From Terriglobia bacterium (GTDB taxonomy: Bacteria; Acidobacteriota; Terriglobia; JAIQFV01): a DNA stretch of 64,000 nt. Location of the stretch: NCBI GenBank assembly GCA_020073085.1, contig JAIQFV010000006.1, forward strand, positions 1 to 64,000. Direction: 5' to 3'. Under the pieces are notes generated by a model. It was not told where the DNA came from and did no database searches. It saw only the letters and a program-made list of their open reading frames with translations. Position 1 is the stretch's first letter, and each line of letters begins with the position of its first letter. Position numbers and translations under genes: made by a program. Positions 1 through 14,667 of this stretch are shown here, in pieces.

Positions 1-130
1 AGCACCTGGTGCAGTTCCTTTTGGTCGTGGGGCGAGACATGAATTTGTAAAGGATGTCGTGACATGCCCCGAGTATAGAATGAAACATCTTATAATACAA
101 TTACTTTATAGAACCGTTTCAGGCGGTCAA

Positions 131-270
131 AGACCTAGCCTGCCCGGCGGGGGATAATGGCCACCCTCCCCCGAAGGGGTTGTATATTCCAGCCCAGGGT
201 TGGCCGCCTTGCGGCCTACCCTGGGTGAGGATTCGTTTCCATGGAGGTTTTACCCTGAAGGGGTTCCATA
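131..270. repeat. Palindromic intergenic repeat element
   Basis: The stretch holds nested inverted repeats. The strongest is a hairpin with arms at 193-207 and 211-225 (CCCAGGGTTGGCCGC against GCGGCCTACCCTGGG, one mismatch). Short motifs CCGAAGGGG and CCTGAAGGGG flank it. From general knowledge, hairpin repeats of this appearance are scattered between genes in Acidobacteriota and some other environmental phyla. No convincing gene is present between 1 and 612; the long open frame on the - strand here only reads through repeats. Confidence 0.55.
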
Positions 271-280
271 CAACCTTGAC

Positions 281-462
281 GGACGCAGATAAACCCAGAC
301 AAACACAGAAGTGATTTGAGTAGGAATGAATTGGGTCGGCCCGTGTGATGCACGATAGGTTTTTGTTACATGTGTCTTTCCGATATTGGTCGTGAGCATT
401 TGATCGCAAGCCATTGTCTTTAACCCAAGGACTTCCGTGTTTGTCTGTGTTCATCTGCGTCC
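281..462. repeat. Inverted pair of a 31-base repeat
   Basis: A 31-base unit at 281-311 beginning GGACGCAGAT returns in inverted orientation at 432-462, with about four differences. About 120 bases without a recognisable gene lie between the two copies. The unit type (CGCAGAT-AAAC-CAGACAAACAC) looks like a dispersed intergenic repeat rather than a protein-binding site. Its function is unknown. Confidence 0.55.
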
Positions 463-612
463 TGTTACTTCCTTCTTCTCGATTGTCGAATGTCGCCGCC
501 TGACCTCTTTTGTTGTTCATAAACGTAGTCGAAACCGTTGTGAAATGAACGCCACCTAGATAGAATACCGGGCATACCCGCTTCAAGAATCCAAAGAGGA
601 GGTTCTGGTCTC

Positions 613-2442
613 ATGTTTGTCGAGAGCAAACTCCGGTTCTACCGAATCCGTTATCCGGGTTGCCTATTCGTTCTGACCCTTGCGCTGATGACTTTTGGGC
701 ACGATGTTCCTGCACAAGAACAGGAGTTCGCTAACAAGCTACAGGGGTTCGACACCTACATGGAACAAGTCGTGAAGGATTGGAATACGCCGGGGATCGG
801 CGTGGGCATTGTGATCAATGACAAGCTGGTCTTCGCCAAGGGGTACGGCTACCGGGACTACGAAAAGAAGCTGCCGTTCCTCCCGTCCACCCTGTGCCAG
901 ATCGCTTCGAACTCGAAGCTATTCACGGCTGTGGCGGCCGGGATGCTGGTCGAGGAAGGAAAGCTCACCTGGGATAAACCCGTGCGCGAGTCCGTGCCGA
1001 CGATCCAGTTTTACAACGACCCGCTCAACAATAACGTTACTCTTCGCGACATGCTGTCGCACCGGACGGGGGTAACGAGGCACGACCTGATCTGGTTCAA
1101 GTCAGATTTCACAAGGAAGCAGTTGTTCGAAAAACTGAAATACCTCGAGCCGCAGGTGCCAATGCGCGAGACCTTCCTGTACAACAACCTCATGTTCTCC
1201 GCCGTCGGGCAGATCATCGAATTGAAGTCTGGAAAAACGTGGGAGCAGTTTGTGCGGGAGAGGATTCTCGAGCCGCTCGACATGTCCTCGACCGGCTATA
1301 CGATTTCCGATATGTTGAAACATCCCGACTACGGGGTCCCCTTCAGAGAAAAACGCGACTCGTTCGAGCTGTACAAGATCCCCTATTACGAGGATACCGA
1401 GGGCGTCGCCCCTGCGGGCGCGATCATCTCGAATATCGACGAGCTGTCGCACTGGCTCATCGCTCTGATGAACGACGGGAAATACCATGGGAAGCAGGTC
1501 CTGCCGGCTAACGTGCTGAAAGCCACCTTGCAACCCGCCATTGGGTTACCCAACACCCTTGGGGAATCCCAGGGATACTGGGAGATACTGAATCCAGCTT
1601 ACGGGATGGGGCGACAGACCGCCTCCTACAGGGGACGCCTGATCACCTATCACGGCGGCGACCTTCCCGGGTTTCATTCGCAGATTTCTCTCATGCCCAA
1701 CGACAGGATCGGCGTGATCGTCCTCGTGATCGGCGATCACAGTGCTCCCCTCTACAACATCGTCAGCTACAACGTCTATGAGCGATTGCTCGGGATGGAC
1801 CAGACACCCTGGAGTCGGCGCCGGCTGGAGCAGCGGCTCGCCAACAAAAAGGCCGGCACGGAAGCGCGGGCGAAGGCCGGCGCGGACCGGGTTGCGAACA
1901 CCAAGCCGTCCCACTTGTTGGCCAACTACGGGGGTGAGTACGAGAACCCGGCTTACGGCATTCTCAAAATCGGAGTCAAGGATAACCAGCTTCAATTCGG
2001 GTTTCACGAGTTCCAGTTTCCGATGACTCATTTCCATTACGACCGGTTCGATACGCCCGACGACGAACAATATGGCAAATTCTCGGTTAATTTCCGGACC
2101 AATCCCCAGGGAGACATCGATGGCGCGGTCATTTCTCTGGACGAGGCCGAGGTCGTTTTCACGCGGAGGCCCGAGACTCTGGATCCGAAGCTTCTCGAGA
2201 AGCTCGCGGGAGTTTACCTGACGCCAGCTCACATCAAGTTCCAGGTCCTCTATCAGCCGGGGGTCGGACTCTCTCTTGTATTCCCGGGGGGACCTCCGCT
2301 CAAACTCACCCCGGTCAAAGGTCTCCAGTTCAGGACTCCGCAGTTCTCCGACGAGATCTTTGAGTTCGTGATGGAGAACGACCAGGTGAAGGCCCTGAAG
2401 GTGCGCGACCCGTCAGGCGAATTATCCTACTCCCGGCAATGA
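613..2442 (+). CDS. Secreted serine hydrolase of the beta-lactamase/PBP4-like family, with C-terminal DUF3471-like region
   Basis: This is a penicillin-binding-protein-like serine hydrolase (class C beta-lactamase fold) of 609 residues. A hydrophobic signal segment spans about residues 15-35, so the enzyme should act in the periplasm or outside the cell. The active-site set is complete: S99-x-x-K102 (nucleophile and base), Y190-N-N192 and H347-G-G349. The catalytic domain runs to about residue 400. The C-terminal 200 residues are beta-rich and resemble the DUF3471 extension found on many such proteins. The start is well supported by AAAGAGGAGG about 11 bases upstream. The substrate is unknown; family members include D-amino peptidases, esterases and D,D-peptidases, and the sequence does not choose between them. 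It is monocistronic as far as can be seen. Confidence 0.85.
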   Translation: MFVESKLRFYRIRYPGCLFVLTLALMTFGHDVPAQEQEFANKLQGFDTYMEQVVKDWNTPGIGVGIVINDKLVFAKGYGYRDYEKKLPFLPSTLCQIASNSKLFTAVAAGMLVEEGKLTWDKPVRESVPTIQFYNDPLNNNVTLRDMLSHRTGVTRHDLIWFKSDFTRKQLFEKLKYLEPQVPMRETFLYNNLMFSAVGQIIELKSGKTWEQFVRERILEPLDMSSTGYTISDMLKHPDYGVPFREKRDSFELYKIPYYEDTEGVAPAGAIISNIDELSHWLIALMNDGKYHGKQVLPANVLKATLQPAIGLPNTLGESQGYWEILNPAYGMGRQTASYRGRLITYHGGDLPGFHSQISLMPNDRIGVIVLVIGDHSAPLYNIVSYNVYERLLGMDQTPWSRRRLEQRLANKKAGTEARAKAGADRVANTKPSHLLANYGGEYENPAYGILKIGVKDNQLQFGFHEFQFPMTHFHYDRFDTPDDEQYGKFSVNFRTNPQGDIDGAVISLDEAEVVFTRRPETLDPKLLEKLAGVYLTPAHIKFQVLYQPGVGLSLVFPGGPPLKLTPVKGLQFRTPQFSDEIFEFVMENDQVKALKVRDPSGELSYSRQ

Positions 2443-2631
2443 GACCGGGTTAGCCGCCCGTGCCTCCGGGCTCTTTGCGCCTTTGCGGTGATTTCCGAGT
2501 TGTAATTGTGGAAGCATGAGCCCAAAAATTTTCCGGTCTAAATTCCCGGCCAGAGGAGCGGAGGACTGGCGTTGACCCGCAAGGGGCTGCGCCAGTTTGC
2601 CGCAGGCGGGCCAAGGTAACCGTCCCGCTCG

Positions 2632-2970
2632 CTATTTGTACGTGGCGTTTGTCAAATCCAAATCATCGCGGTGGTCGGTGAAATCCACCATCGAGGTGAA
2701 TGCCGGGCCACCCAGCGGGCTCGCCTTCTGCGCGTCGCGCAAGGCGGCGTTGTATTTGTCCAAGCCGTCCGCGTTGGACGCAATAAAGACAATCCAGAAC
2801 ATCTGGGCCGATTCCGTGTGGATCGCTTCGGTGTCAATCTCATATTCGAGAATCGTGCCGCCGGCCAGCAACTTCTCCAAAAGCGGCACAAATAGATTCT
2901 TGCAGAGGGTGCCAATCGCATCGTCCGGCGCTTCGAAGAATGAAAAAAAAGTGATTGGCCAAATCGGGGG
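2632..2970 (-). pseudogene. 3' fragment of an unknown gene
   Basis: On the - strand an open frame reads from about 2970 down to a stop at 2632 and gives a protein-like C-terminus with dense acidic and hydrophobic patterning, for example the stretches LEKLLAGGTILEYEID and QMFWIVFIASNADGLDKY. No plausible start codon lies in this frame upstream. The first internal Met is at 2889 and has no ribosome-binding site. A run of eight A/T bases at 2943-2950 marks where the frame degenerates. I read it as the tail of a gene whose 5' part has been lost. The family is not recognised. Confidence 0.45.
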
Positions 2971-3164
2971 TTTTGATACACAATTTGCATGGAACCTCCG
3001 CGAGGGCGGAGGAGTTTGGATGTCCCCCCTGTAGGGAAAACATGATTGCCGCGGAAGCGGATTACGGACCTCCTCCGGGAAGGAAGGGGCTCAACACTTG
3101 AGGATCTCCCGCAGACCTGAACCGGCCGGTGGCATCCGCATTGTAAGACAGTAAGAGGCTTCAG

Positions 3165-5393
3165 ATGACAGCACCGTCCCCGTCGGGCCCCAAGGCGACT
3201 CCTCAACGTAAGCCGGTTGAAGAACAGTTGCGGGAAAGCGAGCTCCGAATTCGCGCCTTTTGGGATCACAGCCCAAACCTTATTTTTCTTAAGGACAAAG
3301 AACTTCGTTACCTGTACGTCAATCGAGAATTTGAAAGAGTTCTCCGTGTCGACGGCGAACAGATTCGTGGCAAGAGGGATCATGAGGTGTTTCCACACGA
3401 GCTGGCAGCCGCCTTTCAAGCCAACGACCTTGAGGTGCTCAAGGCAGGTGTCCCGATTGAATTCGAGGAGGTAACCCAGCAGGCAGACGGTCCGCACATA
3501 AGCATCGTCCATAAGTTTCCACTCTACGATGCGGCGGGCGAAATCTATGCGATCGGGGGCATTGTCACCGACATCACCGAACGCAAACGATCGAGGGAAG
3601 CGCTCCAGCACAGCGAGGAGCGCTACCGGAGCGTGGTCGAAACCGCCACGGATGCTGTGGTCAGCGTCGATCAGGAAAGCCAGATTATCTTTGCGAATCC
3701 GGCGACCACCCGAACTTTCGGGTATCCAATTTCCGAAATGATCGGACAGCCTTTAACGATGCTCATGCCGGAATTCATGCGTGAGCTTCATAAGGCGGGA
3801 TTTCAACGTTACCTCAAAACAAACCAGCGCCATGTCGATTGGAACGGAGTGCAGCTTGTCGGCCTCCGGAAGAACGGGGAGGAATTTCCGGTCGAGGTCT
3901 CCTTCGGCGAGGTTCTCATAGACGGCCGTCACATCTTTACGGGGTTCATTCGCGACACCACCGAGCGGAAGCAGGCAGAAGAAAAGATCCGGGACCAGGA
4001 AGCAGAGTTGCGACAAGTACTGGATCTCGCCCCTCAGCACATCGTTGTCCTGGGACCCGAAGGGAATCGACTTTATGCCAACCGGGCCGCGCTCGACTAT
4101 CATGGTCTCACCCTCGACACGTGGCGGAGCTGTGATCCGCGCCGCCTCTTTCATCCGGATGATTGCGAACGGATGACGAGCGGGGCGCAATTCAAGGTCT
4201 TCAGTGAAACCCCATACGAGCGCGAAGCGCGGTTACTGGGAAAGGACGGGAAGTATCTCTGGTTTCTTTTCCACCGCAACCCGCTGCGAGATGCGCAGGG
4301 ACAGATTACGCGTTGGTATCTGGCGGGGACGGATATCGAGGATCGTAAGCAGCAGGAAGAGAGAATTCAGCACGAAAACGTTGCCCTGCGCGAAGAAATC
4401 GACAAGGCATCCATGTTCGAGGAAATCGTCGGGAGCGCTCCCGCCCTGCATGCGCTGTTTTCTCGTGTATCCAAGGTCGCTCCCACCGACTCCACCGTTC
4501 TGATCACCGGAGAAACCGGGTCGGGCAAGGAACTTGTGGCTCGCGCCATCCACAAGCGGTCTCTTCGCTCCTCACACGCCTTTGTGGGTGTGAACTGCGT
4601 TGCCATCCCGCGTGACCTGATCGCCTCAGAATTATTCGGCCACGAAAAGGGTGCCTTTACAGGGGCGACCCAGCAACGTTTAGGCCGCTTTGAATTGGCC
4701 GGAGGAGGCACGATCTTCCTGGATGAAGTCGGAGAGCTTCCGGCCGAGACCCAGATCGCACTCTTGCGGGTTCTGCAAGAACACGAATTTGAGCGTATCG
4801 GCGGAACTCGATCCATGCGAACGGATGTTCGTGTGATTGCGGCCACGAACTGTGACTTGCAGGCCGCCATTGCCGCAGGCGCGTTTCGCAGCGACCTGTT
4901 TTTCCGGCTCAACGTTTTCCCGATCGAGATTCCCCCGCTCCGGGACCGAAGAGAAGACATTCCCTTGCTGGTTGAGTACTTCATCGATCGCTATGCACGA
5001 AAAGCGGGGAAGAGGATACGAACCATCGAGAAGCGCACCCTGGAACTGTTCCAATCGTACCCCTGGCCGGGGAACATTCGCGAATTGCAGAACGTCATCG
5101 AGCGATCGGTCATTGTGTGTGATGGAGAGAATTTTTCGGTCGATGAGAGCTGGCTTTCTCGGCCGCTCCCCGCGACTGAATCGAACCGCCGGCTTGACCT
5201 TTATAAAAGTCTTTCGACTCAGGAAAAGGAAATCATTGAGGTTGCCTTGAGCGAAAGCGGGGGACGGGTTTCCGGACCGTCAGGCGCGGCTCAAAAGTTG
5301 GGGATGCCCCGCTCGACCCTGGAATCGAAGATTCGGTCCCTGAAGATCAACAAGAATCGCTTCAAAACAGCGAATCCCTCCGGGAACAGCTAA
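3165..5393 (+). CDS. PAS-domain sigma-54-dependent transcriptional activator
   Basis: This is a bacterial enhancer-binding protein of 742 residues with three N-terminal PAS domains (about 25-140, 145-265 and 275-400), an AAA+ domain (about 415-650) and a Fis-type helix-turn-helix at the end (about 690-735). Walker A GETGSGKE lies near residue 448. The sigma-54 contact loop GAFTGA near 496 is intact, as are FLDEVGELP (Walker B) and the R-finger region. It therefore should open promoters together with RpoN. There is no receiver domain, so the signal is probably sensed directly by the PAS domains; no cofactor can be assigned. No target is obvious, although the STAS and exporter genes downstream are on the same strand after a 180-base gap. 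Sigma-54 itself is not in the window. Confidence 0.9.
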   Translation: MTAPSPSGPKATPQRKPVEEQLRESELRIRAFWDHSPNLIFLKDKELRYLYVNREFERVLRVDGEQIRGKRDHEVFPHELAAAFQANDLEVLKAGVPIEFEEVTQQADGPHISIVHKFPLYDAAGEIYAIGGIVTDITERKRSREALQHSEERYRSVVETATDAVVSVDQESQIIFANPATTRTFGYPISEMIGQPLTMLMPEFMRELHKAGFQRYLKTNQRHVDWNGVQLVGLRKNGEEFPVEVSFGEVLIDGRHIFTGFIRDTTERKQAEEKIRDQEAELRQVLDLAPQHIVVLGPEGNRLYANRAALDYHGLTLDTWRSCDPRRLFHPDDCERMTSGAQFKVFSETPYEREARLLGKDGKYLWFLFHRNPLRDAQGQITRWYLAGTDIEDRKQQEERIQHENVALREEIDKASMFEEIVGSAPALHALFSRVSKVAPTDSTVLITGETGSGKELVARAIHKRSLRSSHAFVGVNCVAIPRDLIASELFGHEKGAFTGATQQRLGRFELAGGGTIFLDEVGELPAETQIALLRVLQEHEFERIGGTRSMRTDVRVIAATNCDLQAAIAAGAFRSDLFFRLNVFPIEIPPLRDRREDIPLLVEYFIDRYARKAGKRIRTIEKRTLELFQSYPWPGNIRELQNVIERSVIVCDGENFSVDESWLSRPLPATESNRRLDLYKSLSTQEKEIIEVALSESGGRVSGPSGAAQKLGMPRSTLESKIRSLKINKNRFKTANPSGNS

Positions 5394-5572
5394 CCTTCCT
5401 TTGTACGTGACTCTCCAAAAACGAGACGGGGTGTTTGTACAATTTTCGCCAATTGGCGAACGCCTCGCCATCTCTCCATCGGTTAATTAATCTATTTTCA
5501 GCAGCTTACGTTTGGAGCCTGAGTTGCACCTTTATCGTAACTCAGCTCAAATCAGATTCCTGAAGAGGGAAG

Positions 5573-5878
5573 ATGCTCAAGATTCGCAGAGCAGCGAACG
5601 GGGAGGTCGTCCTCAAATTGAGCGGTCGAATGGCCGCAGAGAATCGAGCCGAGCTGAAAACGCTTCTTGAATTAGAAGAAAAAGGACGCCGCATTGTCCT
5701 GGATTTAGAGGACCTGACCCTGGTGGATCGGGAGGCTGTCGGGTTTCTCGGGCGCTGCGAAGACGAGGGCATCAAGCTCGAAAATTGTCCGGCCTATATC
5801 CGGGAGTGGATTGAACGAGAAAGAGGCGGAAATTCTTCGCCAATCGGTGATCGGTTTAGGGGCCCGGCAACGACGTGA
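5573..5878 (+). CDS. Small STAS-domain protein (anti-sigma-factor antagonist-like)
   Basis: This 101-residue protein consists of one STAS fold: the start MLKIRRAANGEVVLKLSGRM, a central strand IVLDLEDLTLVD and the C-terminal motif CPAYIREWI. SpoIIAA-type proteins bind anti-sigma or transporter partners and are often controlled by phosphorylation of a Ser/Thr after the central D. Here the residue in that region is V-D-R-E, so a phosphorylatable Ser is not obvious. The last 20 residues after IREWIERERGG look unrelated to the fold. They overlap the 5' edge of the EmrA-type remnant, so the original C-terminus may have been altered by the deletion that removed that gene. The partner is unknown. 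Confidence 0.75.
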   Translation: MLKIRRAANGEVVLKLSGRMAAENRAELKTLLELEEKGRRIVLDLEDLTLVDREAVGFLGRCEDEGIKLENCPAYIREWIERERGGNSSPIGDRFRGPATT

Positions 5879-5985
5879 AAACTGTGCAAAGGATTCCGGT
5901 GAAAATCGTTCTTGATTCGGGCGAGAACAAAGATCGTCCACTTCGACCCGGCATGAACGTCGTACCGGACGTGCCGCTCCGATGA
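5860..5985 (+). pseudogene. C-terminal remnant of an EmrA/HlyD-type membrane fusion protein gene
   Basis: In the frame that ends at TGA 5983-5985 the sequence encodes GNDVKTVQRIPVKIVLD and, after ten residues, LRPGMNVVPDVPLR. This is the conserved C-terminal beta-barrel signature of EmrA-type periplasmic adaptor proteins. Upstream the frame is closed by TAG at 5857-5859, so about 90 percent of the gene is missing. The remnant stop overlaps the exporter start as ATGA, the usual emrA-emrB junction. It also overlaps the end of the STAS gene. Seen: the motif and the overlap. Inferred: a deletion fused the STAS region to the end of emrA. Confidence 0.75.
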
Positions 5986-7577
5986 CTTCCGCGGCGCTCA
6001 CGATGGACCAGGACCTCTGGCAGCCCCGATACAATCCTTGGCTGATCGCCGTGGTGGTGGCGATGGCAGCGTTCATGGAGGTCCTCGACACCAGCATCGC
6101 CAACGTGGCACTGCCGTATATGGCAGGGAATCTCGGAGCGAGCAACGACCAGAGCACATGGGTCCTGACCTCGTATCTGGTCTCGAATGCCATCGTCCTG
6201 CCCATCAGCGGCTGGCTGGCGGGCGCCTTCGGCCGGAAGCGTTTTTTCATGACCTGTTTGGGTGTGTTCACCGTGAGCTCAGTGCTTTGCGGAGTGGCGC
6301 CCAGTCTCGGGGTTCTGCTTTTCTTCCGTGTGCTGCAAGGCGCGGGCGGCGGGGGACTGCAGCCGATGGCCCAGGCCATTCTGGCAGACACCTTTCCGCC
6401 GCAGCGGCGAGGTCTGGCGTTTGCGTTGTATGGCGTCACGGCCATCATGGCGCCGACGATCGGTCCCACCCTGGGTGGATGGATCACCTTCAATTATTCC
6501 TGGCGATGGATTTTTTTTATCAATATCCCGGTCGGCCTGGTTACATGGTTTCTGGTGCGGCTCTTCATTGAAGATCCGCCCTACTTAAGCCGTCTCAAGT
6601 CGGCTGGGGTGAAGTTGGACTATGTGGGCATCGCTCTATTGGCTCTCGGGGTCGGGGCCCTGCAAATCTTGCTCGATAAAGGCCAGGAGGATGATTGGTT
6701 CGGGTCGTCCTTTATCACCACTTTAGCCATCATGGCGGCACTTTGCCTGATCGGGTTGGTGCTCTGGGAATGGTTTCAGAAGGCTCCGATTATTGAGGTT
6801 CGGATGTTCAAGAATTTTAACTTCGCCAGTGCGAGCTTGATGATGTTCATCCTGGGAATCGTGTTGTTCAGCAGTCTCGTTCTGATGCCTCAGTTCCTCC
6901 AGACGCTCTTGGGATACACCTCCGAGTTGGCGGGTCTGGCGCTTTCGGCGGGTGGATTAGTCTTGCTCTTTGAAATGCCCATTGTGGGTCAGCTCACCAC
7001 GAAGGTTCCGGCGCGTTACCTGATCGCATTCGGTTGGTTAAGTCTGTTCATCGCCATGTTCTATTCCACGAAGCGGATTGACTTGGAGATGAGTTTCAAT
7101 GCCGCCGTGTGGCTGCGCATCGCCCAGGTCTTTGGGTTGGGATTCCTGTTCGTGCCGATTACGCTGGTGGCTTACATCGGAATTTCGCCGGAGAAGAATA
7201 ACGCGGTCGCCGGGATTGTCAACTTCATGCGCAATATGGGAAGCAGCGTCGGAACTTCCCTAGTCACAACAGTAATTGCGCGGCGATCGCAATTCCATCA
7301 GGCAAGACTGGTACAGTACGCGGGAGCGGACAACCCCAATTTCCAGGACTTGGTAAACGGCCTCAGCGAGCGCTTGGCTCATTCGGGATTGGGAGCGTAC
7401 GGAGCGCACCAGCAGGCGATTGCCAGGATCTATCGAGAGCTGCAAGCGCAGGCGGCGAACCTGGCCTATATTGATGCCTTCATGGTCCTTGCCGTCGGGG
7501 CCGGGATCATGTTCTGTCTGGCTTTTGCTTTGAAGAAGAACGCTCCCGGTGGCGGTGGGATAACGGCGGAGGGTTAG
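5982..7577 (+). CDS. DHA2-family (EmrB/QacA) drug:proton antiporter
   Basis: This inner-membrane exporter of the major facilitator superfamily has 531 residues and about 14 hydrophobic segments. The DHA2 signature LDTSIANVALP lies at residues 35-45 in the first helix. GWLAGAFGRKRFF follows at the loop between helices 2 and 3, and the motif C region MAPTIGPTLGGWI comes near residue 165. EmrB-type pumps drive hydrophobic compounds out with a periplasmic adaptor (EmrA) and an outer-membrane channel. The adaptor gene that should precede it survives only as a tail that overlaps the start codon by four bases. An alternative start is ATG 6003. The cargo is unknown. Whether the pump is still expressed and works with another adaptor cannot be told from sequence. 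Confidence 0.92.
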   Translation: MTSAALTMDQDLWQPRYNPWLIAVVVAMAAFMEVLDTSIANVALPYMAGNLGASNDQSTWVLTSYLVSNAIVLPISGWLAGAFGRKRFFMTCLGVFTVSSVLCGVAPSLGVLLFFRVLQGAGGGGLQPMAQAILADTFPPQRRGLAFALYGVTAIMAPTIGPTLGGWITFNYSWRWIFFINIPVGLVTWFLVRLFIEDPPYLSRLKSAGVKLDYVGIALLALGVGALQILLDKGQEDDWFGSSFITTLAIMAALCLIGLVLWEWFQKAPIIEVRMFKNFNFASASLMMFILGIVLFSSLVLMPQFLQTLLGYTSELAGLALSAGGLVLLFEMPIVGQLTTKVPARYLIAFGWLSLFIAMFYSTKRIDLEMSFNAAVWLRIAQVFGLGFLFVPITLVAYIGISPEKNNAVAGIVNFMRNMGSSVGTSLVTTVIARRSQFHQARLVQYAGADNPNFQDLVNGLSERLAHSGLGAYGAHQQAIARIYRELQAQAANLAYIDAFMVLAVGAGIMFCLAFALKKNAPGGGGITAEG

Positions 7578-7641
7578 CGCAGTGGGCCATTCAATCCGTG
7601 GGTAGATACCGAGGGGCGGAGGGCATAAGTCAAGGAGCTCG

Positions 7642-8265
7642 ATGATCAGAATCGTCACGATCGAACGGGAATACGGAAGCGGCGGCGGCGAAATCGCCCG
7701 GCGGCTTGCGACGCAGTTGGGCTGGACACTTTGGGATCAGTTGCTGACCGATGAGATCGCCAGGCTGGCGAATTGTCCCAAAGCCGTCGTCGAGGTTCGC
7801 GAGGAACGAACCGACCCCCTCTATTACCGGCTCTTCAAGTCTTTTATGCGGGGGAGTTATGAAGGCAGCCTCAATGCGCCCAAGCTCAATCTAGTCGATA
7901 GCGAAAGCATTCTGAGATTCACCGAACAGGTCGTTCGGCACGCCGCTGAGACCGGAAACTCGGTCATCATCGGCCGGGGGTCGCAGCATTTTCTCAGGGA
8001 CCGTCAAGACACGCTCCGTGTGTTTCTTTACGCTCCGAGAGAAGACAAGGTACGGCGCCTGTTGGCTCGCGGCAAGAGTCAGAACGAAGCCGAACAGTTG
8101 GTGGATTCTATTGATCGGGAGCGGGCCGATTTCATCCAGAAATACTTCAGGGCGCAATGGCCGAATCGCGCCGTGTACCACGCCATGATCAATACGGCGA
8201 TCGGAGACGAGACCGTCGTTCAGATGATTCTGAATTTCATGAGGACCGTCGATGCGGCAACCTGA
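7642..8265 (+). CDS. Cytidylate kinase-like P-loop protein
   Basis: This 207-residue protein of the cytidylate-kinase-like family (AAA_26/PF13189 type) begins MIRIVTIEREYGSGGGEIAR. The glycine-rich loop GSGGGE at residues 12-17 takes the place of a classical Walker A and lacks the usual GK[ST]. Further family marks are IIGRGSQHFL around residue 112 and the Arg-rich lid region VRRLLARGKSQNEAE. Members are predicted to phosphorylate nucleoside monophosphates or small molecules, but most are uncharacterised. It follows the exporter by 64 bases on the same strand and may be cotranscribed with it. Confidence 0.8.
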   Translation: MIRIVTIEREYGSGGGEIARRLATQLGWTLWDQLLTDEIARLANCPKAVVEVREERTDPLYYRLFKSFMRGSYEGSLNAPKLNLVDSESILRFTEQVVRHAAETGNSVIIGRGSQHFLRDRQDTLRVFLYAPREDKVRRLLARGKSQNEAEQLVDSIDRERADFIQKYFRAQWPNRAVYHAMINTAIGDETVVQMILNFMRTVDAAT

Positions 8266-8591
8266 GCCCAATGCCTTGCTGCGGAGTTCACACACAGAAT
8301 TGAATCAGTACGATCCAATAAAACAAAGGGCACCTCGCTCTTATCGTTTGGTGGAACGAGTGTAAGAAGAGGGGATGAGGTTCTTTGATTTCAGCTCTAT
8401 TTCAGTTTAATGAATCAGACTTCCGAAGTAAAAGCCGCGTTCGGAACGGAGCGAGGAAAGCCTTGACGCTCTCCTCTCTGGTTTCCCGGTGGAGTGATCG
8501 GGGGTGTCTGTCTAGACGCGACGCGCCGTGTGGCCTCCTTCACGGGATTGTGCGCCTTTCTCATCTCCAGTCAGTTCCCGATCTCCCATTT

Positions 8592-8771
8592 GGAATCCCC
8601 AAGGGACAGCCCCTAGGGACAGTCCCTTTTTCGATCTCAAATTTGAAATTTCAGATCAAGGCTGCCCCAACACTAATCAAACAGATTCAACCGCTTGGTG
8701 GTAGTGGATTCTTGTCCCCAGTGATCGGGAATCCCGAAGGGACAGTCCCTAGGGACAGTCCCTTTTTCGAT
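8592..8771. repeat. Two direct copies of a 44-base palindromic repeat
   Basis: Copies at 8592-8635 and 8728-8771 share 42 of 44 bases. Each contains two tandem palindromic cores of the type AGGGACAGTCCCT and ends in CCCTTTTTCGAT. The rest of the 580-base gap between 8266 and 8847 shows no gene. The GGGACAG core is also seen at 21897-21958, so it probably belongs to a genome-wide REP-type family. The run of T after the second palindrome would allow transcription termination. Confidence 0.7.
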
Positions 8772-8847
8772 TCGAGAGCATTCTGTCGAGGGCTCGTCAT
8801 TTTGCGGAGTATGCAGCCCCCATTTAAATCGAATAGGAGAGTGAGAA

Positions 8848-9354
8848 ATGAGCACAAATGTGAAACGGCAAATGATAACCCGCTCTCAGCCGGCCGGCGC
8901 CGAGCTGCGCTTGAAAGAGCTGGGCATCGAGCTCCCGGAGCCGCCTGAGCCGTTCGGCACCTATGTGGAATCGGTGCAGACGGGCAATCTGCTTTTTCTG
9001 AGCGGGATGCTTCCCACGGAAGGCCACGAGGCGAAATTCATTGGACGCGTCGGCGCGGAGCTCGATGTGGAAGCGGGGCGCAACGCGGCTCACCGCGCCG
9101 CGCTCAACGCCCTCGCTGTCGCAAGGAAGCATTTGGGATCGCTCGACCGGGTGACGCGGATCGTCCGGCTCGGCGTGTCGGTGGCCACTTCGGGAGATGT
9201 TCGCGATCAGCCGAATGTTGCTGACGCCGCTTCGGAGTTGCTCGAAAACGTCTTCGGGAAGGACAAGCGCCCTTGCCGCCTGGTGTATGGCGTCGCAAGC
9301 CTTCCGCTCGGCACCCCGGTCGCGCTGGAAGTGATTTTCGAGGTGGCGGGGTAA
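8848..9354 (+). CDS. RidA/YjgF-family protein
   Basis: This 168-residue member of the RidA (YjgF/YER057c/UK114) superfamily carries FGTYVESVQTGNLLFLSG near the start, NALAVARKHLGSLDRVTRIVRL in the middle and the C-terminal PLGTPVALEVIFEV. RidA proper hydrolyses reactive enamine/imine intermediates of amino-acid metabolism. The canonical catalytic Arg of RidA (in the C(I/V)R-type position) is not obvious here: the aligned segment reads CRLVYGV. It may therefore be a divergent subfamily. The start has AGGAGAGTGAG just upstream. An internal ATG at 8872 is a possible alternative. It is the first gene of the accessory enzyme block. Confidence 0.85.
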   Translation: MSTNVKRQMITRSQPAGAELRLKELGIELPEPPEPFGTYVESVQTGNLLFLSGMLPTEGHEAKFIGRVGAELDVEAGRNAAHRAALNALAVARKHLGSLDRVTRIVRLGVSVATSGDVRDQPNVADAASELLENVFGKDKRPCRLVYGVASLPLGTPVALEVIFEVAG

Positions 9355-9500
9355 AGGCGCGGGGCGCAATGGTCGGTTGGCTCGCTGGTGAGGAGTAAGT
9401 GCTTTCAACAATAGCTGAAAATCATTGGACGATTCATGGCAACGAAATCGCTTTCAACAAATCTGATTTCGATCCAGGTGAACGCACAGGAGGAAAGTGC

Positions 9501-10439
9501 ATGGCGAATCTGAAGTATTCAAGCTCGAAAGGCACGTCGCTGCTATTGGTCGCTGCCCTCGTGTTGTGCGCAATGACCGCTTGGGCACAAAGCGCCAGGG
9601 ACACATGTCGACCCGCTTCGGTTATCCCGCTCGCCAATGAGCTCCCAGCGAAGATCGTCATCGATCCTCCGCTGGCCGGACCCCTCGCCTCCCGGGGAGT
9701 GGCGATTATCCAATACTGTACTCAGAACCTGCACCTTGTGCCGGTGTTCGGCCCCAATGCCCTGGCCGTCTCGCCGCGCATCGGCCACCTTCATGTGAGA
9801 GTGGACGATGCCCCATGGGTATGGGCAGATGCGAGTGGCAACCCAATCATCCTGATGGGTCTTCCCTCCGGTCCGCACAATGTGCTCATTGAATTGGAGG
9901 ACGCCAACCACCACCCCCTCGACAAAGGCACGGTCACCTTTGTCATTCCAGAAAAGTTTGCGGCCGAAAAGGCCCCGGCCTCTGGACAGGCCGATGGAGA
10001 GGCCCCCCCGATCTTCGGAGTCAAGATCCCCGCCGGATACCGCGACTGGAGGTTGATCTCCGTGGCCCACGAAGAGGGCAACCTCAACGATCTGCGCGCC
10101 ATTCTGGGCAACGACGTAGCGATCAAGGCCTATCGCGAAGGAAAGCTTCCGTTCCCGGACGGCACAATCATTGCCCGAATAGCCTGGAGTTCCGTCGCCT
10201 CAGAGGAAAACAACAAAGTCTTTGGCCGTCCCCAATCTTTCGTTCCCGGGCTCGCCCCGGATTGGTACCTTCAGTTTATGGTCAAGGACTCAAGAAAGTA
10301 CGCCGCGACGGGCGGCTGGGGGTTCGCTCAATTCAATAAGGACGGCAAACCTGCCGACGAGGCACCGCTCAAAACCTGCTTTCCCTGCCACGAGGCTATC
10401 AAAGCTCGCGACTTGGTCTTCACCCGTTACGCCCCTTAA
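9501..10439 (+). CDS. Exported DUF6130-cytochrome P460 fusion protein
   Basis: This 312-residue periplasmic protein starts with a signal peptide (about 1-29, ending AWA-Q). A DUF6130-like beta domain (about 55-150) has the HLHVRVDD and WADASGNP motifs. The cytochrome P460 domain (about 185-312) starts GVKIPAGYRDWRL and ends with the c-type haem motif C293-F-P-C296-H297. P460 proteins oxidise hydroxylamine or bind NO and related ligands, depending on a Lys crosslink to haem. I cannot place that Lys with certainty. ATG 9501 is chosen over an upstream ATG at 9399 because CAGGAGGAAA precedes it and the signal peptide begins there. The two-domain combination is noteworthy. Confidence 0.82.
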   Translation: MANLKYSSSKGTSLLLVAALVLCAMTAWAQSARDTCRPASVIPLANELPAKIVIDPPLAGPLASRGVAIIQYCTQNLHLVPVFGPNALAVSPRIGHLHVRVDDAPWVWADASGNPIILMGLPSGPHNVLIELEDANHHPLDKGTVTFVIPEKFAAEKAPASGQADGEAPPIFGVKIPAGYRDWRLISVAHEEGNLNDLRAILGNDVAIKAYREGKLPFPDGTIIARIAWSSVASEENNKVFGRPQSFVPGLAPDWYLQFMVKDSRKYAATGGWGFAQFNKDGKPADEAPLKTCFPCHEAIKARDLVFTRYAP

Positions 10440-10537
10440 TACCGAGAATCACAGCAGAAAGAAATGAGACGATGACCGCACGCAAATCAACTGCATCATA
10501 AACCAAGAAATCCAAGACTACTTAAAAGGAGAACACC

Positions 10538-11767
10538 ATGACCCCAGCCAGTGCTACAAAACGAGGTCGCGAGAAGGCAGATGACAAGAATGCAATCCGT
10601 CCGTTTCATGTAAACGTTCCAGAGGCGGATCTGACCGAATTGCGCAGGCGCATCAACGCGACTCGGTGGCCCGATCGCGAGACGGTCACCGATCAAACGC
10701 AAGGTGTGCAACTCGCCACGGTTCAGGCCCTCGCACGCTATTGGGCGACCGCGTACGACTGGCGCAAGTGCCAAGCCCAGCTGAACGCCCTGCCGCAGTT
10801 CATCACCGAGATCGACGGGCTGGACATTCACTTCATTCACGTCCGGTCAAAGCACGAAAATGCGTTGCCGCTCATCGTCACGCACGGCTGGCCCGGCTCG
10901 ATCGTCGAGCAGCTGAAGATCATCGATCCGCTGACCGATCCCACGGCGCATGGCGGCAGCGCATCCGATGCGTTCCATCTGGTGATTCCGTCGATGCCCG
11001 GCTATGGGTTTTCGGGCAAGCCAACCACCACCGGCTGGGACCCTGCCCATATCGCGCGTGCCTGGGTCGTGCTGATGAAGCGCCTCGGGTACACGAAATT
11101 CGTGGCGCAAGGCGGCGATTGGGGCGCGGTTATCACGGAACAAATGGGCGTGCAGGCGCCTCCGGAGTTGCTCGGCATTCACGTCAACATGCCAGGCATT
11201 TTTCCAGCCGACATTGATGGGGCGGCCTTTTCCGGGGCGCCGGCACCGTCCAGTCTCTCAGCCGAAGAGAAAATCGCTTACGAGCGACTGCAGTTCGTAT
11301 ATCAAAAGGGCATCGCTTACGGGTACCAGATGGGGCTGCGGCCGCAGACGTTGTACGGAATCGCGGATTCCCCCGTTGGCCTGGCGGCTTATTTCCTTGA
11401 TCACGACGCACGCAGCTACGAGCTGATCTCACGCGTTTTTGCGGGAGAATCCGAGGGCCTCACGCGGGACGACATCCTCGACAACATCACGATCACCTGG
11501 TTGACGAACACGGCGCTTTCCGGCGCCCGTCTCTATTGGGAGAATTGGGGCAAACTCGGGTATTTCAATGCCAAAGGCGTCGCCATCCCCGTTGCCGTGA
11601 CCTCCTTTCCTGACGAGCTCTACCCGACCCCGCGTAGTTGGGCTGAGCAGGCGTTCCCAAAACTCATCCACTACAACAAGGTCGACAAAGGCGGGCACTT
11701 CGCGGCCTGGGAACAGCCGAAGCTCTTTTCAGCAGAGCTTCGCGCGGGCTTCAGATCGCTGCGGTAG
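10538..11767 (+). CDS. Epoxide hydrolase with N-terminal EHN domain
   Basis: This alpha/beta-hydrolase of 409 residues belongs to the microsomal-epoxide-hydrolase-like group. The N-terminal EHN segment (about 18-110) carries RPFHVNVPEADLTELRRRI and TRWPD. The oxyanion-side motif HGWPGS is at 116-121. The nucleophile is D194 in GGDWGA, and the base is H387 in GGHFAAWEQP. Two lid tyrosines are expected but were not assigned. The reaction is addition of water to an epoxide to give a diol. A strong context GGAGAACACC precedes the start. It has its own leader rather than overlapping neighbours, but the next gene follows after 30 bases, so the two are likely in one transcript. Confidence 0.9.
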   Translation: MTPASATKRGREKADDKNAIRPFHVNVPEADLTELRRRINATRWPDRETVTDQTQGVQLATVQALARYWATAYDWRKCQAQLNALPQFITEIDGLDIHFIHVRSKHENALPLIVTHGWPGSIVEQLKIIDPLTDPTAHGGSASDAFHLVIPSMPGYGFSGKPTTTGWDPAHIARAWVVLMKRLGYTKFVAQGGDWGAVITEQMGVQAPPELLGIHVNMPGIFPADIDGAAFSGAPAPSSLSAEEKIAYERLQFVYQKGIAYGYQMGLRPQTLYGIADSPVGLAAYFLDHDARSYELISRVFAGESEGLTRDDILDNITITWLTNTALSGARLYWENWGKLGYFNAKGVAIPVAVTSFPDELYPTPRSWAEQAFPKLIHYNKVDKGGHFAAWEQPKLFSAELRAGFRSLR

Positions 11768-11797
11768 GATTCTTCACTAGAGAGGAGGAGATGCACC

Positions 11798-12667
11798 ATG
11801 CCTGACCATTCGCAGTTCATCACCGACCGGACCCATCCGGGCCGGTGGACGATCACCTTCAGCAACCCGCCGATCAACATGTTTGTTCCCACAACGATCG
11901 TCGAGTTGGGAGCGCTCATGACCGAACTCGAGGCGGACCTGTCCGTGAAGGTCGTCGTGTTCGAGTCGGCGAACCCCGATTTTTTCGTCGCCCACCTCGA
12001 CGTAGCCAAGGCCGCTGAACGGCCAGAGGCGCTGGGCCTTTGGCGCGACTTTGTGCTGCGCCTCTCGTCCACGCCAGTCGTGAGCATCGCCAAGATTCGC
12101 GGCCGCACGCGCGGCATCGGTAACGAATTCGTGCTGGCCTGCGACATGCGCTTCGCCAGCCGGCAAAGCGCCCTATTCGGCCAACCCGAGATCGGTGTCG
12201 GACTGGTCCCGGGCGGCGGAGCGCTGGAATGGCTCCCGCGCTTGGTCGGCCGCTCGCGCGCCCTTGAGATCGTCCTCAGCGGCGACGATTTCGACGCTGA
12301 TATCGCCGAGCGCTACGGCTGGGTGAACCGCACGCTGGACGATGACGGCCTCGACTCGTTTGTCGATGCGCTCGTCCGGCGTCTGGCCTCATTCGACCGT
12401 GAAACGCTGGCCGCGGCGAAGGCCCAGATCAATCGGTTCGGGACGCCGACAGCTACCGAGCTTCAGTCGAGCAACGACCTGTTCTTCCCACTGCTGGCCT
12501 TGCCAGGTGCGCAGGAGCGCCGTGCCAAGATCCGTGGTATCGGTTACGGTCTTCGGAGCGACTTCGAATTGAACTTCGGCCGGTACCTCCCTTCGTTCGG
12601 GCGGGCGGACGACGAAGACATGGATACACAGCCGACCAAAGCAGACCGTGCGAAGGCTGGTCTCTGA
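11798..12667 (+). CDS. Enoyl-CoA hydratase/isomerase (crotonase) family protein
   Basis: This 289-residue crotonase-fold protein has GRTRGIGNEFVLACDMRFAS carrying the first catalytic Glu and PEIGVGLVPGGGALEWLPRL carrying the second, so a hydratase-type active site is possible. The usual substrate-loop motif A-G-x-D is replaced by AHLDV. The oxyanion loop GxAxGGG is degenerate (GRTRGIGN), so the substrate may not be an ordinary enoyl-CoA. The C-terminus is extended and rich in D/K. GAGAGGAGGAG lies upstream of the start. It follows the epoxide hydrolase closely. Confidence 0.85.
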   Translation: MPDHSQFITDRTHPGRWTITFSNPPINMFVPTTIVELGALMTELEADLSVKVVVFESANPDFFVAHLDVAKAAERPEALGLWRDFVLRLSSTPVVSIAKIRGRTRGIGNEFVLACDMRFASRQSALFGQPEIGVGLVPGGGALEWLPRLVGRSRALEIVLSGDDFDADIAERYGWVNRTLDDDGLDSFVDALVRRLASFDRETLAAAKAQINRFGTPTATELQSSNDLFFPLLALPGAQERRAKIRGIGYGLRSDFELNFGRYLPSFGRADDEDMDTQPTKADRAKAGL

Positions 12668-12962
12668 CCTTTTTCACTCGAGACCACATAGACACGTTCG
12701 CGAGGGGATTCGTTGCATGCGCGAGATCTTCCACGCCGATAAACGCAGAGGCGAAAAACGTACCCACGTCCGGTAGGCTCTTCTTCCTGGACCTCGGCGC
12801 CGGCCGTAAGCCGATTTCAGAGGCCCATAACCGGCAAGCAACGCCTCTGTTCGCAAAAAGTGTCGAGCGACACGCCCTAAGGGACAAGTGATTCTGCTGG
12901 CTGGCGCGCTCAAATGCAACAACTCAAACTGTCGATTCTGGCAACAGGCAGGAGGAGAGCTC

Positions 12963-13604
12963 GTGGCAGATTTGAAGTTTGAAAAGGAGATCACCGCGCT
13001 TCTCGTCATCGACCCGTATAACGATTTCATTTCTGAGGGAGGCAAAATATGGGACCGCATCCGGACTGTTGCAGAAGCGAATGACTGCGTTCCTCATATG
13101 CTGCAGGTCCTGAATGCCGCGCGAAAGGCGAAGCTTCGGGTCTTCTATGCGCTGCATCATCGATACCGTCCGGGCGATTACGAGACCTGGAAGTACATAG
13201 CGCCTATTCAGAAGGCAGCTTGGTTGCACAAAGCGTTCGAATACGGCACGTGGGGTGGCGAGATCCGCCGCGAGTTCGCCCCTCAACCGGGCGATATCGT
13301 GGCCCTCGAGCATTGGTGTTCCAGTGGCTTCGCCAACACGGATTTGGATTTGCAGCTCAAGAGACACGGTATCCATCAGCTCATCGTCATGGGACTCATC
13401 GCACACACGTGTGTAGAGGCCACTGTTCGTTATGCCGCTGAGCTTGGCTACGAGGTCACGATGGTGAAAGATGCGACGGCGAGTTACTCGGATAAGGAGA
13501 TGCATGCCGCTCTCGACGTGAATATCCCAAACTACGCCGGTGCCATGGTGACCACAAATGAAGTCGTCGATTCGATTTTCGGCAGTAGGAGTGAACGTTA
13601 TTAA
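12963..13604 (+). CDS. Isochorismatase-like cysteine hydrolase
   Basis: This 213-residue member of the cysteine-hydrolase superfamily (isochorismatase, nicotinamidase and carbamoylase relatives) keeps the catalytic Asp in LLVIDPYNDF and the nucleophilic Cys in GLIAHTCVEATVRY. The third catalytic residue, Lys in most members, aligns with Glu in the motif ALEHWCSSGFANTDLD. From memory this EHW..SGFANTDLD pattern marks a distinct subfamily, so the reaction should not be assumed. GTG 12963 is chosen because GGCAGGAGGAGAG sits just upstream and the conserved N-terminus begins there. The 295 bases before it hold no recognised gene. Confidence 0.85.
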   Translation: MADLKFEKEITALLVIDPYNDFISEGGKIWDRIRTVAEANDCVPHMLQVLNAARKAKLRVFYALHHRYRPGDYETWKYIAPIQKAAWLHKAFEYGTWGGEIRREFAPQPGDIVALEHWCSSGFANTDLDLQLKRHGIHQLIVMGLIAHTCVEATVRYAAELGYEVTMVKDATASYSDKEMHAALDVNIPNYAGAMVTTNEVVDSIFGSRSERY

Positions 13605-13632
13605 AGAAAGTTCAAAATTCAAAGGAGAAATC

Positions 13633-14667
13633 ATGACAACTACAAAGACCGCAATGGCACCCATGAAGGTGGCGCAGATTTCCAAGGCGGGGTCCGATTT
13701 CCAGATTGTCGAGCGCGAGATTCCCAAGCCGGGGGTCGGACACGTGCGCATCCAGGTGCAGGCCTGTGGGGTCTGCCACAGTGACGTGCTCACGAAAGAA
13801 GGCGCCTGGCCCGGGATTCAGTATCCCCGCGTTCCGGGACACGAAGTCGCAGGCCTCATCGATGAGGTGGGCGTCGGGGTTTCCGGGTGGAAGAAGGGGC
13901 AGCGCGTCGGGGTTGGCTGGCACGGTGGGCAGGACGGCACGTGTCTCGAGTGCCGTCGCGGAGATTTTCGCAATTGCCGGAATCTGAAGATTGCGGGCAT
14001 CAGCTATGACGGCGGGTACCAGCAGTACATGGTGGCTCCGGTGGAGGCCCTGGTGCCGATACCGGAAAGCCTGAGTGACGCCGATGCCGCGCCGCTGCTC
14101 TGCGCTGGAATTACCACCTTCAACGCGCTGCGGCACAGCGGTGCGTTTCCCGGCGACCTGGTGGCGGTGCAGGGCATCGGCGGTCTGGGTCACCTCGGAG
14201 TTCAATTCGCGAACAAGTGTGGTTATCAGGTCGCGGCCATCGGGCGTGGGCCCGAAAACGCTTCGCTCGCCAAGAAACTCGGAGCCAACGTGTACATCGA
14301 CAGCAAATCGACGAACGCAGCCGAAGCTTTGCAAAAACTGGGCGGCGCACGCGTCATTCTAGCCACCGCCCCAAGCTCGAAAGCCATGTCCGAGCTGATC
14401 GACGGTCTGGGGCCGAACGGCAAGCTCATAGTGATCGGTGCGACCTTTGATCCCATCGAGGTCACCCCGATACAGCTCATTACCGGAAGTCGCACGATTC
14501 AAGGCTGGGCCGCCGGCACTCCAGCCGATTCCGAGGACACCCTGCGTTTCGCCGAACTGACCGGCGTGCGTCCCATGATTGAAAAATATCCGCTCGAAAA
14601 AGCGGCCGAAGCCTACGCGCGAATGTTGAGCGGCAACGCCCAGTTCCGCGTCGTTCTGACGATGTGA
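13633..14667 (+). CDS. Zinc-dependent alcohol dehydrogenase (AdhP/AdhA-like)
   Basis: This 344-residue medium-chain dehydrogenase begins MTTTKTAMAPMKVAQI after AAAGGAGAAATC. Catalytic zinc ligands are visible in ACGVCHSD and the following GHE motif (VPGHEVAG). The structural-zinc loop reads GGQDGTCLECRRGDFRNC, that is, three of four cysteines with Asp at the first position. The Rossmann motif GIGGLGHLGVQFA supports NAD(P) binding. It would oxidise alcohols or reduce aldehydes in the cytoplasm. It follows the isochorismatase-like gene by 28 bases on the same strand. An in-frame upstream ATG (13558) is rejected because it overlaps that gene and lacks a ribosome-binding site. Confidence 0.9.
   Translation: MTTTKTAMAPMKVAQISKAGSDFQIVEREIPKPGVGHVRIQVQACGVCHSDVLTKEGAWPGIQYPRVPGHEVAGLIDEVGVGVSGWKKGQRVGVGWHGGQDGTCLECRRGDFRNCRNLKIAGISYDGGYQQYMVAPVEALVPIPESLSDADAAPLLCAGITTFNALRHSGAFPGDLVAVQGIGGLGHLGVQFANKCGYQVAAIGRGPENASLAKKLGANVYIDSKSTNAAEALQKLGGARVILATAPSSKAMSELIDGLGPNGKLIVIGATFDPIEVTPIQLITGSRTIQGWAAGTPADSEDTLRFAELTGVRPMIEKYPLEKAAEAYARMLSGNAQFRVVLTM

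Follow-up and report, generated by a model that had tools for sequence, protein, structure and literature searches.

The window, a stretch of 64,000 nucleotides from a Terriglobia genome, appears to hold a fragment of a foreign efflux operon that was captured and joined to a STAS gene. We give a probability of about 0.8 to this reading, in which the remnant of a truncated emrA gene serves as a translation relay and the pump, EmrB, borrows a paralogous EmrA or works as an inner-membrane exporter. A 2.4-kb piece of a foreign tolC-emrA-emrB-kinase operon would have been broken inside the last tenth of emrA, and illegitimate recombination via a 5-bp microhomology would have attached it at the 3' end of STAS, a resident gene located behind a sigma54 activator. 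The locus contains an emrA tail, an intact emrB and a kinase gene; the collinear locus of a sibling genome (G001, same genus) lacks them, their affinity is foreign, and the cognate emrA is missing. The features of the locus are as follows.

3165-5393, plus strand: PAS-sigma54-dependent activator, 742 amino acids, resident (Sigma54_activat 2e-68; three PAS stretches; HTH_8).
5445-5460, no strand: 16-bp perfect palindrome TTCGCCAATTGGCGAA, a possible activator site, exact in G001 at the same place.
5513-5528, plus strand: weak sigma54-like -24/-12 element (GG-N10-GC), 9 of 12 letters of the consensus, identical in G001.
5573-5878, plus strand: STAS gene, 101 amino acids, resident; its last codons and stop were created by the junction.
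5857-5859, plus strand: frame-closing TAG, part of the host DNA; G001 carries an additional base here.
5864-5868, no strand: left junction with the 5-bp microhomology CCGGC; host homology ends at 5868 and donor emrA homology starts at 5864.
5864-5985, plus strand: EmrA C-terminal remnant in the open frame 5860-5985, with a possible GTG start at 5875 and 36 codons from there onward.
5875-5878, plus strand: GTGA, where the possible remnant start overlaps the STAS stop; no Shine-Dalgarno site was found for it.
5982-5985, plus strand: ATGA, where the emrB start overlaps the remnant stop.
5982-7577, plus strand: emrB, a DHA2 efflux transporter of 531 amino acids, read as acquired (TIGR00711, 442 bits; 83-86% identical to distant Acidobacteriota).
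7642-8265, plus strand: Cytidylate_kin2 (PF13189) kinase-like gene, read as acquired with emrB (1.7e-42; same order in donors; own Shine-Dalgarno site).
8269-8812, no strand: zone of the right boundary, between the end of donor homology (8268) and the return of the host locus (8813).
8848-9354, plus strand: resident gene of 168 amino acids, which we presume to be RidA-like, collinear with contig C79 of G001 (92% DNA identity).

The initial annotation had placed about 40 residues of an EmrA C-terminus before emrB, with an ATGA overlap, and profile searches bear this out. The remnant matches NCBIfam TIGR00998 with E=1e-5 over model positions 302-331 of 334, far under the full-length cut-off of 390.8 bits, and the EmrA family NF011715 with E=5e-4 over positions 313-342 of 390; the EmrA structure chains 8zal and 8zar are matched at E of about 0.01. 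A full-length EmrA of a relative, used as query in this genome, returns the remnant with 78% identity over residues 383-422 (E=4e-12). By these comparisons the EmrA match is beyond chance. The remnant contains the C-terminal β-barrel segment VKxVQRxPVKI...LRPGM and aligns to the 3' end of the emrA genes in tolC-emrA-emrB loci of distant Acidobacteriota. The open frame on the plus strand has 41 codons (5860-5982), followed by the stop TGA at 5983-5985; from GTG 5875, which corresponds to an internal valine codon in donor emrA genes, it gives 36 residues matching the EmrA C-terminus. It falls short of a full adaptor, which has an N-terminal membrane helix, a hairpin, a lipoyl domain and a whole β-barrel, in agreement with the annotation's view that everything upstream in emrA is gone from the locus. 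A search of the whole genome for the missing part gave no other piece; relocation of that part elsewhere in the genome was rejected, the best other EmrA being only 45% identical. The frame was also described as closed by a stop. That stop exists, as the upstream TAG at 5857-5859, and it belongs to host DNA, left of the junction and outside emrA.

The emrB gene has no internal stops, and its product matches TIGR00711 over residues 22-506, a full-length family match with 442 bits against a cut-off of 230.2. EmrB carries the motif-D aspartate and the FFRVxQG stretch. Against six relatives its dN/dS is 0.08-0.125, so that by sequence EmrB is intact and constrained. Decay of the bundle on which EmrA docks was considered and rejected: in this bundle, with approximate bounds that we set at residues 432-492, none of 12 invariant columns is changed, against 5 of 269 elsewhere. 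The ratio of codon positions 1+2 to position 3 is 0.243 for the window emrB, the highest of 24 end branches (others 0.056-0.196); given this, constraint on the gene may have eased.

The Cytidylate_kin2 kinase-like gene lies near emrB in 65 of 89 locus rows, a count that includes duplicates and cut contigs. Its position takes three forms. It may follow emrB, it may stand between emrA and emrB (L026 and L036), or it may immediately precede emrB and overlap it by 4 bases, as on contig C12 of this genome (L190, G000:C12:52000-62000, 4396-6587), a place without a visible emrA in the vicinity. Such a pairing with a drug pump might mean that the kinase modifies the pump's substrate.

Comparison with the same-genus genome decides against the simplest reading of the locus, that of the initial annotation, in which gene loss struck a resident exporter operon. 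DNA of G001 contig C79 matches window positions 3102-5868 (88%) and 8813-11962 (92-93%), and between the two matched blocks it has about 310 bp without emrB or the kinase-like gene. Loss from a resident operon is rejected by this collinearity without emrB, together with the affinity of EmrB to distant Acidobacteriota. The same-genus comparison consists of this one genome, and the same-family comparison of one other, G002. Inspection of the locus in a close genome, as had been proposed, gave the left edge at 5864-5868; no emrB was found there, and intact copies of the truncated emrA occur in distant relatives. The STAS-ridA interval of G001 is itself rearranged and is not a clean empty site: about 180 bp of it are 73% identical to the end of a window gene that we take to be epoxide-hydrolase-like. 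This debris corresponds to L143:4420-4732, and both lineages hold gene debris at the STAS-ridA site.

The STAS gene had been thought to be brought next to the remnant; the comparisons argue for the opposite, with the activator, the STAS gene and the ridA-like gene as residents. The PAS-sigma54 activator is 90% identical and collinear in G001:C79, and the STAS protein is 83% identical to that of G001 over residues 1-99. Its match to STAS_2 (1.8e-5, 25.3 bits) falls under the curated cut-off of 29.2. Neither this genome nor G001 has a second exact copy of the palindrome TTCGCCAATTGGCGAA. The sigma54-like element, at 9 of 12 letters, adjoins the activator, and the same or a better score is found at 31 sites in the window on both strands. 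A search for relatives of the STAS protein covered 399 genomes of the class and gave matches at E<=1e-8 in 62 of them; 20 of the loci were taken for neighbourhood analysis. In 16 of these 20 loci the gene immediately upstream, on the same strand, is a sigma54 activator, and emrA, emrB, tolC or the kinase occurs within 5 kb downstream in none of the 20, several of which lie on short contigs. We therefore consider that the STAS gene is resident with its activator and that emrB arrived beside it.

The closest relatives of the segment are found in distant Acidobacteriota. Window positions 5864-8268, which include the emrA tail, emrB and the kinase-like gene, have about 80% DNA identity to L041, L043 and L052. 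The donor-type operons are complete tolC-emrA-emrB-kinase operons; in loci with enough flank, such as L040, L042, L043, L044 and L045, the order is tolC-emrA-emrB, in some an intervening gene that by its appearance is presumably a universal stress protein, and then the kinase-like gene. The comparison took in 24 distinct loci at an EmrB identity of about 76% or above (one duplicate was dropped and L073 was classed by hand). In 21 of them a whole or nearly whole emrA is directly upstream of emrB; two of the other three are cut by a contig end inside the emrA tail, and one (L083) is without emrA. The remnant motif is conserved in the EmrA of the relatives. None of the relatives carries a STAS gene directly before emrB without an adaptor gene.

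Housekeeping proteins are less similar than EmrB to those of the putative donors. In eight donor-type genomes EmrB identity is 82.5-86%, against 72.5-77% for rpoB (four genomes with a measurable copy) and 49-53% for ileS; in nine genomes with a close EmrB, the corresponding values are 76-86%, 72.5-77% (six measured) and 49-53% (all nine). By comparison, G001 has an rpoB identity of 96.5% (951 residues aligned) and an ileS identity of 91%, and its best EmrB is 52% identical; for G002, rpoB is 90% and the best EmrB 50%. The best copies in the own genus and family are thus at about 50%. The segment is absent from these closest relatives (one same-genus and one same-family genome), and its foreign affinity is above housekeeping similarity. 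Since EmrB is more conserved than rpoB across families and is absent from the genus sibling, we infer horizontal transfer. The EmrB tree places the window inside a 25-row set with a support of 99, in which 23 rows have emrA and the window and one other do not. Because the end branch of the window is long (0.17) and the best donor has about 80% DNA identity, no near donor appears to have been sampled. A search for deviant composition gave no signal, emrB having a GC of 0.571 and the window 0.567; GC is uninformative for transfer here, because the donor loci have similar GC. No EmrB of 60% identity or more was found in 36 plasmid records, all being below this value.

The emrA-less L083 was considered as a sister sharing the emrA loss and was rejected: it occupies a different position in the tree, and it is homologous to the window from the start codon of emrB onward. 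Its EmrB (L083:5700-7238), 86% identical to that of the window, is behind an unrelated gene with no trace of emrA. From sequence, it is a second, independent emrA-less EmrB copy. In another EmrB subgroup (L079, L085, L091, L092, L097 and L104), emrA is located 3-5 kb downstream of emrB, past the kinase-like gene.

The right boundary is placed inexactly, within 8269-8812, a zone whose positions 8300-8596 have a similarity of about 70% to two other sites of G001. We assign the event to the window lineage, because a deletion on the G001 side would need to strike the same point by chance. The claim that the event was recent holds in so far as it appears to be later than the split from G001 (ileS 91%, rpoB 96.5% over the aligned part), and the timing is bounded by that split alone. 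The same junction and microhomology would also result if a whole tolC-emrA-emrB-kinase operon had been acquired behind the STAS gene and a later deletion had run from the STAS end into emrA. Donors usually carry the operon complete, which speaks for such a loss in place; this scenario takes two events where one suffices, however, and remains of tolC or of the 5' part of emrA were not seen at the locus, so that we regard it as quite improbable.

Short palindromic repeats of the AGGGACAGTCCC type, with many copies in the genome, occur just right of the insert at window 8594-8627 and 8737-8775. At the contig start, about 140 bases (window 1-141) have copies of 96-100% identity at or close to the ends of other contigs, both in this genome and in G001; the assembly was probably broken there by a mobile or repeated element. 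Rfam gave zero matches in window 1-14000.

The capture of a fragment would leave emrB with a ready translation signal. By a simple motif scan, emrB lacks a Shine-Dalgarno site both in the window and in the relatives (12 of 12), and the activator, the STAS gene, the kinase-like gene and the next resident genes each have one. At 5982, the stop/start overlap ATGA is present without an independent ribosome site, as expected from sequence for a coupled gene. This arrangement was said to be inherited from an intact emrA-emrB pair, and the relatives agree: they hold intact copies, with an emrA-emrB offset of -1 (ATGA) in 15 of the 24 loci. The lack of a Shine-Dalgarno site fits reinitiation after emrA, of which the remnant keeps the stop-start overlap; emrB probably depends on translation of what lies before it, and the remnant is able to pass this on. 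Ribosomes could pass from the STAS stop and GTG start (GTGA) through the remnant to the stop and emrB start (ATGA). In such a scheme emrB would be translated by termination-reinitiation, the remnant surviving as a translation relay, and the foreign pump would now be expressed with STAS, probably from the putative sigma54-type promoter of STAS.

The pump itself would borrow a paralogous EmrA, encoded on contig C30, or would work, if at all, as an inner-membrane exporter. Borrowing seems possible because the C30 EmrA (L002) shares the same docking loop, FSLLPPENATGNYVKVVQR. According to PMC13139468, E. coli EmrB without EmrA shows neither resistance nor antiport, which disfavours a stand-alone pump. 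A more specific proposal, that debris of emrA, useless as a protein, has been kept as a 36-codon relay under the PAS-sigma54/STAS switch while the pump docks on the paralogous EmrA, is tentative, and we consider it rather doubtful.

The sequence of the remnant bears on two further explanations. Its dN against L041 is 0.106, compared with 0.013-0.059 for four intact relatives against L041 over the same codons. At one position it carries T where the other rows, 25 of 25, all have I, its single change at an otherwise constant residue. By NF011715 numbering, this position corresponds to residue 315 of E. coli EmrA, which PMC13139468 places among the ring-2 residues whose combined change abolished resistance. 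The short frame could be a functional mini-protein or a STAS-EmrA fusion product and not debris: the frame is kept open, and G001 has one base more near 5857, just before the junction, so that STAS read in the sibling's frame would continue straight into the EmrA tail and end at the emrB ATGA. Against this stand the present interruption of that frame, the changed invariant residue, the occurrence in one genome only, and the lack of EmrA's membrane anchor, hairpin and lipoyl domain as well as its hydrophobic ring-1 (placed according to PMC13139468), all of which leave such a product very unlikely. An assembly chimera, in which the join at 5864-5868 unites two unrelated pieces and the remnant is artefactual, gains from the genome being a 68-contig draft with the site 5.9 kb from a contig end, and is hardly credible, since it would need two joins (G001 synteny resumes on the far side, from 8813 on) and the raised dN is as expected after lost function, a signal weakened by the tie in residues off consensus (7 in the remnant and 7 in each of four intact loci that are more distant).

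Since both sides of the junction can be compared with relatives, the locus illustrates how the torn edge of an operon can provide an incoming foreign gene with the signal for its translation in another host. Without the sibling genome, gene loss and capture would be indistinguishable here, and the tempting reading as loss is corrected by it. In it, nature also puts to the test whether pumps of the EmrB type can dispense with their adaptor, or swap it.

Among known systems, the E. coli EmrAB-TolC tripartite MFS pump (PMC13139468), in which EmrB assembles with an EmrA hexamer, is matched by the window EmrB in family, in the motif-D aspartate, in FFRVxQG and in the uneroded docking bundle. The donor operons also resemble it, with tolC-emrA-emrB, whereas the window locus is without cognate EmrA or TolC and retains about 40 C-terminal EmrA residues; emrA and emrB are not encoded together there. 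The tolC-emrA-emrB-(usp)-Cytidylate_kin2 operons of Acidobacteriota (L040, L041, L043 and others) share with the window the emrA tail, the ATGA and the order of emrB and kinase. They differ in that tolC and about 90% of emrA are gone from the window, whose segment lies in the sigma54/STAS locus of another lineage.

In the same family, a STAS gene also heads EmrAB-type operons, STAS-tolC-emrA-emrB, on contig C30 of this genome, G001:C73 and G002:C1 (L186, L187 and L188). These operons differ in being complete and in having another STAS (24% identical for the C30 copy) and an EmrB of about 50% identity, and they are not the source of the fragment. STAS matches are found upstream of emrA also in L109, L111 and L113, of which L111 and L113 are labelled Verrucomicrobia, and the STAS-led efflux operon seems to recur. 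The papers listed by a literature search on EmrA/EmrB coupling, STAS-efflux operons, sigma-54 with STAS and efflux, operon transfer by microhomology, cytidylate kinase-like genes with efflux or EmrB, orphan EmrB and operon fragments included no description of the arrangement.

Operon fragments captured by illegitimate recombination typically have a microhomology junction, a truncated edge gene and an expression borrowed from a resident gene. The junction belongs to a known kind of event, in which part of an operon is captured and the gene at its edge is cut short. It is unusual in that the edge still gives the pump its start context: compared with operon-fragment capture in general, the truncated gene of the window still supplies the stop-start overlap of the gene downstream.
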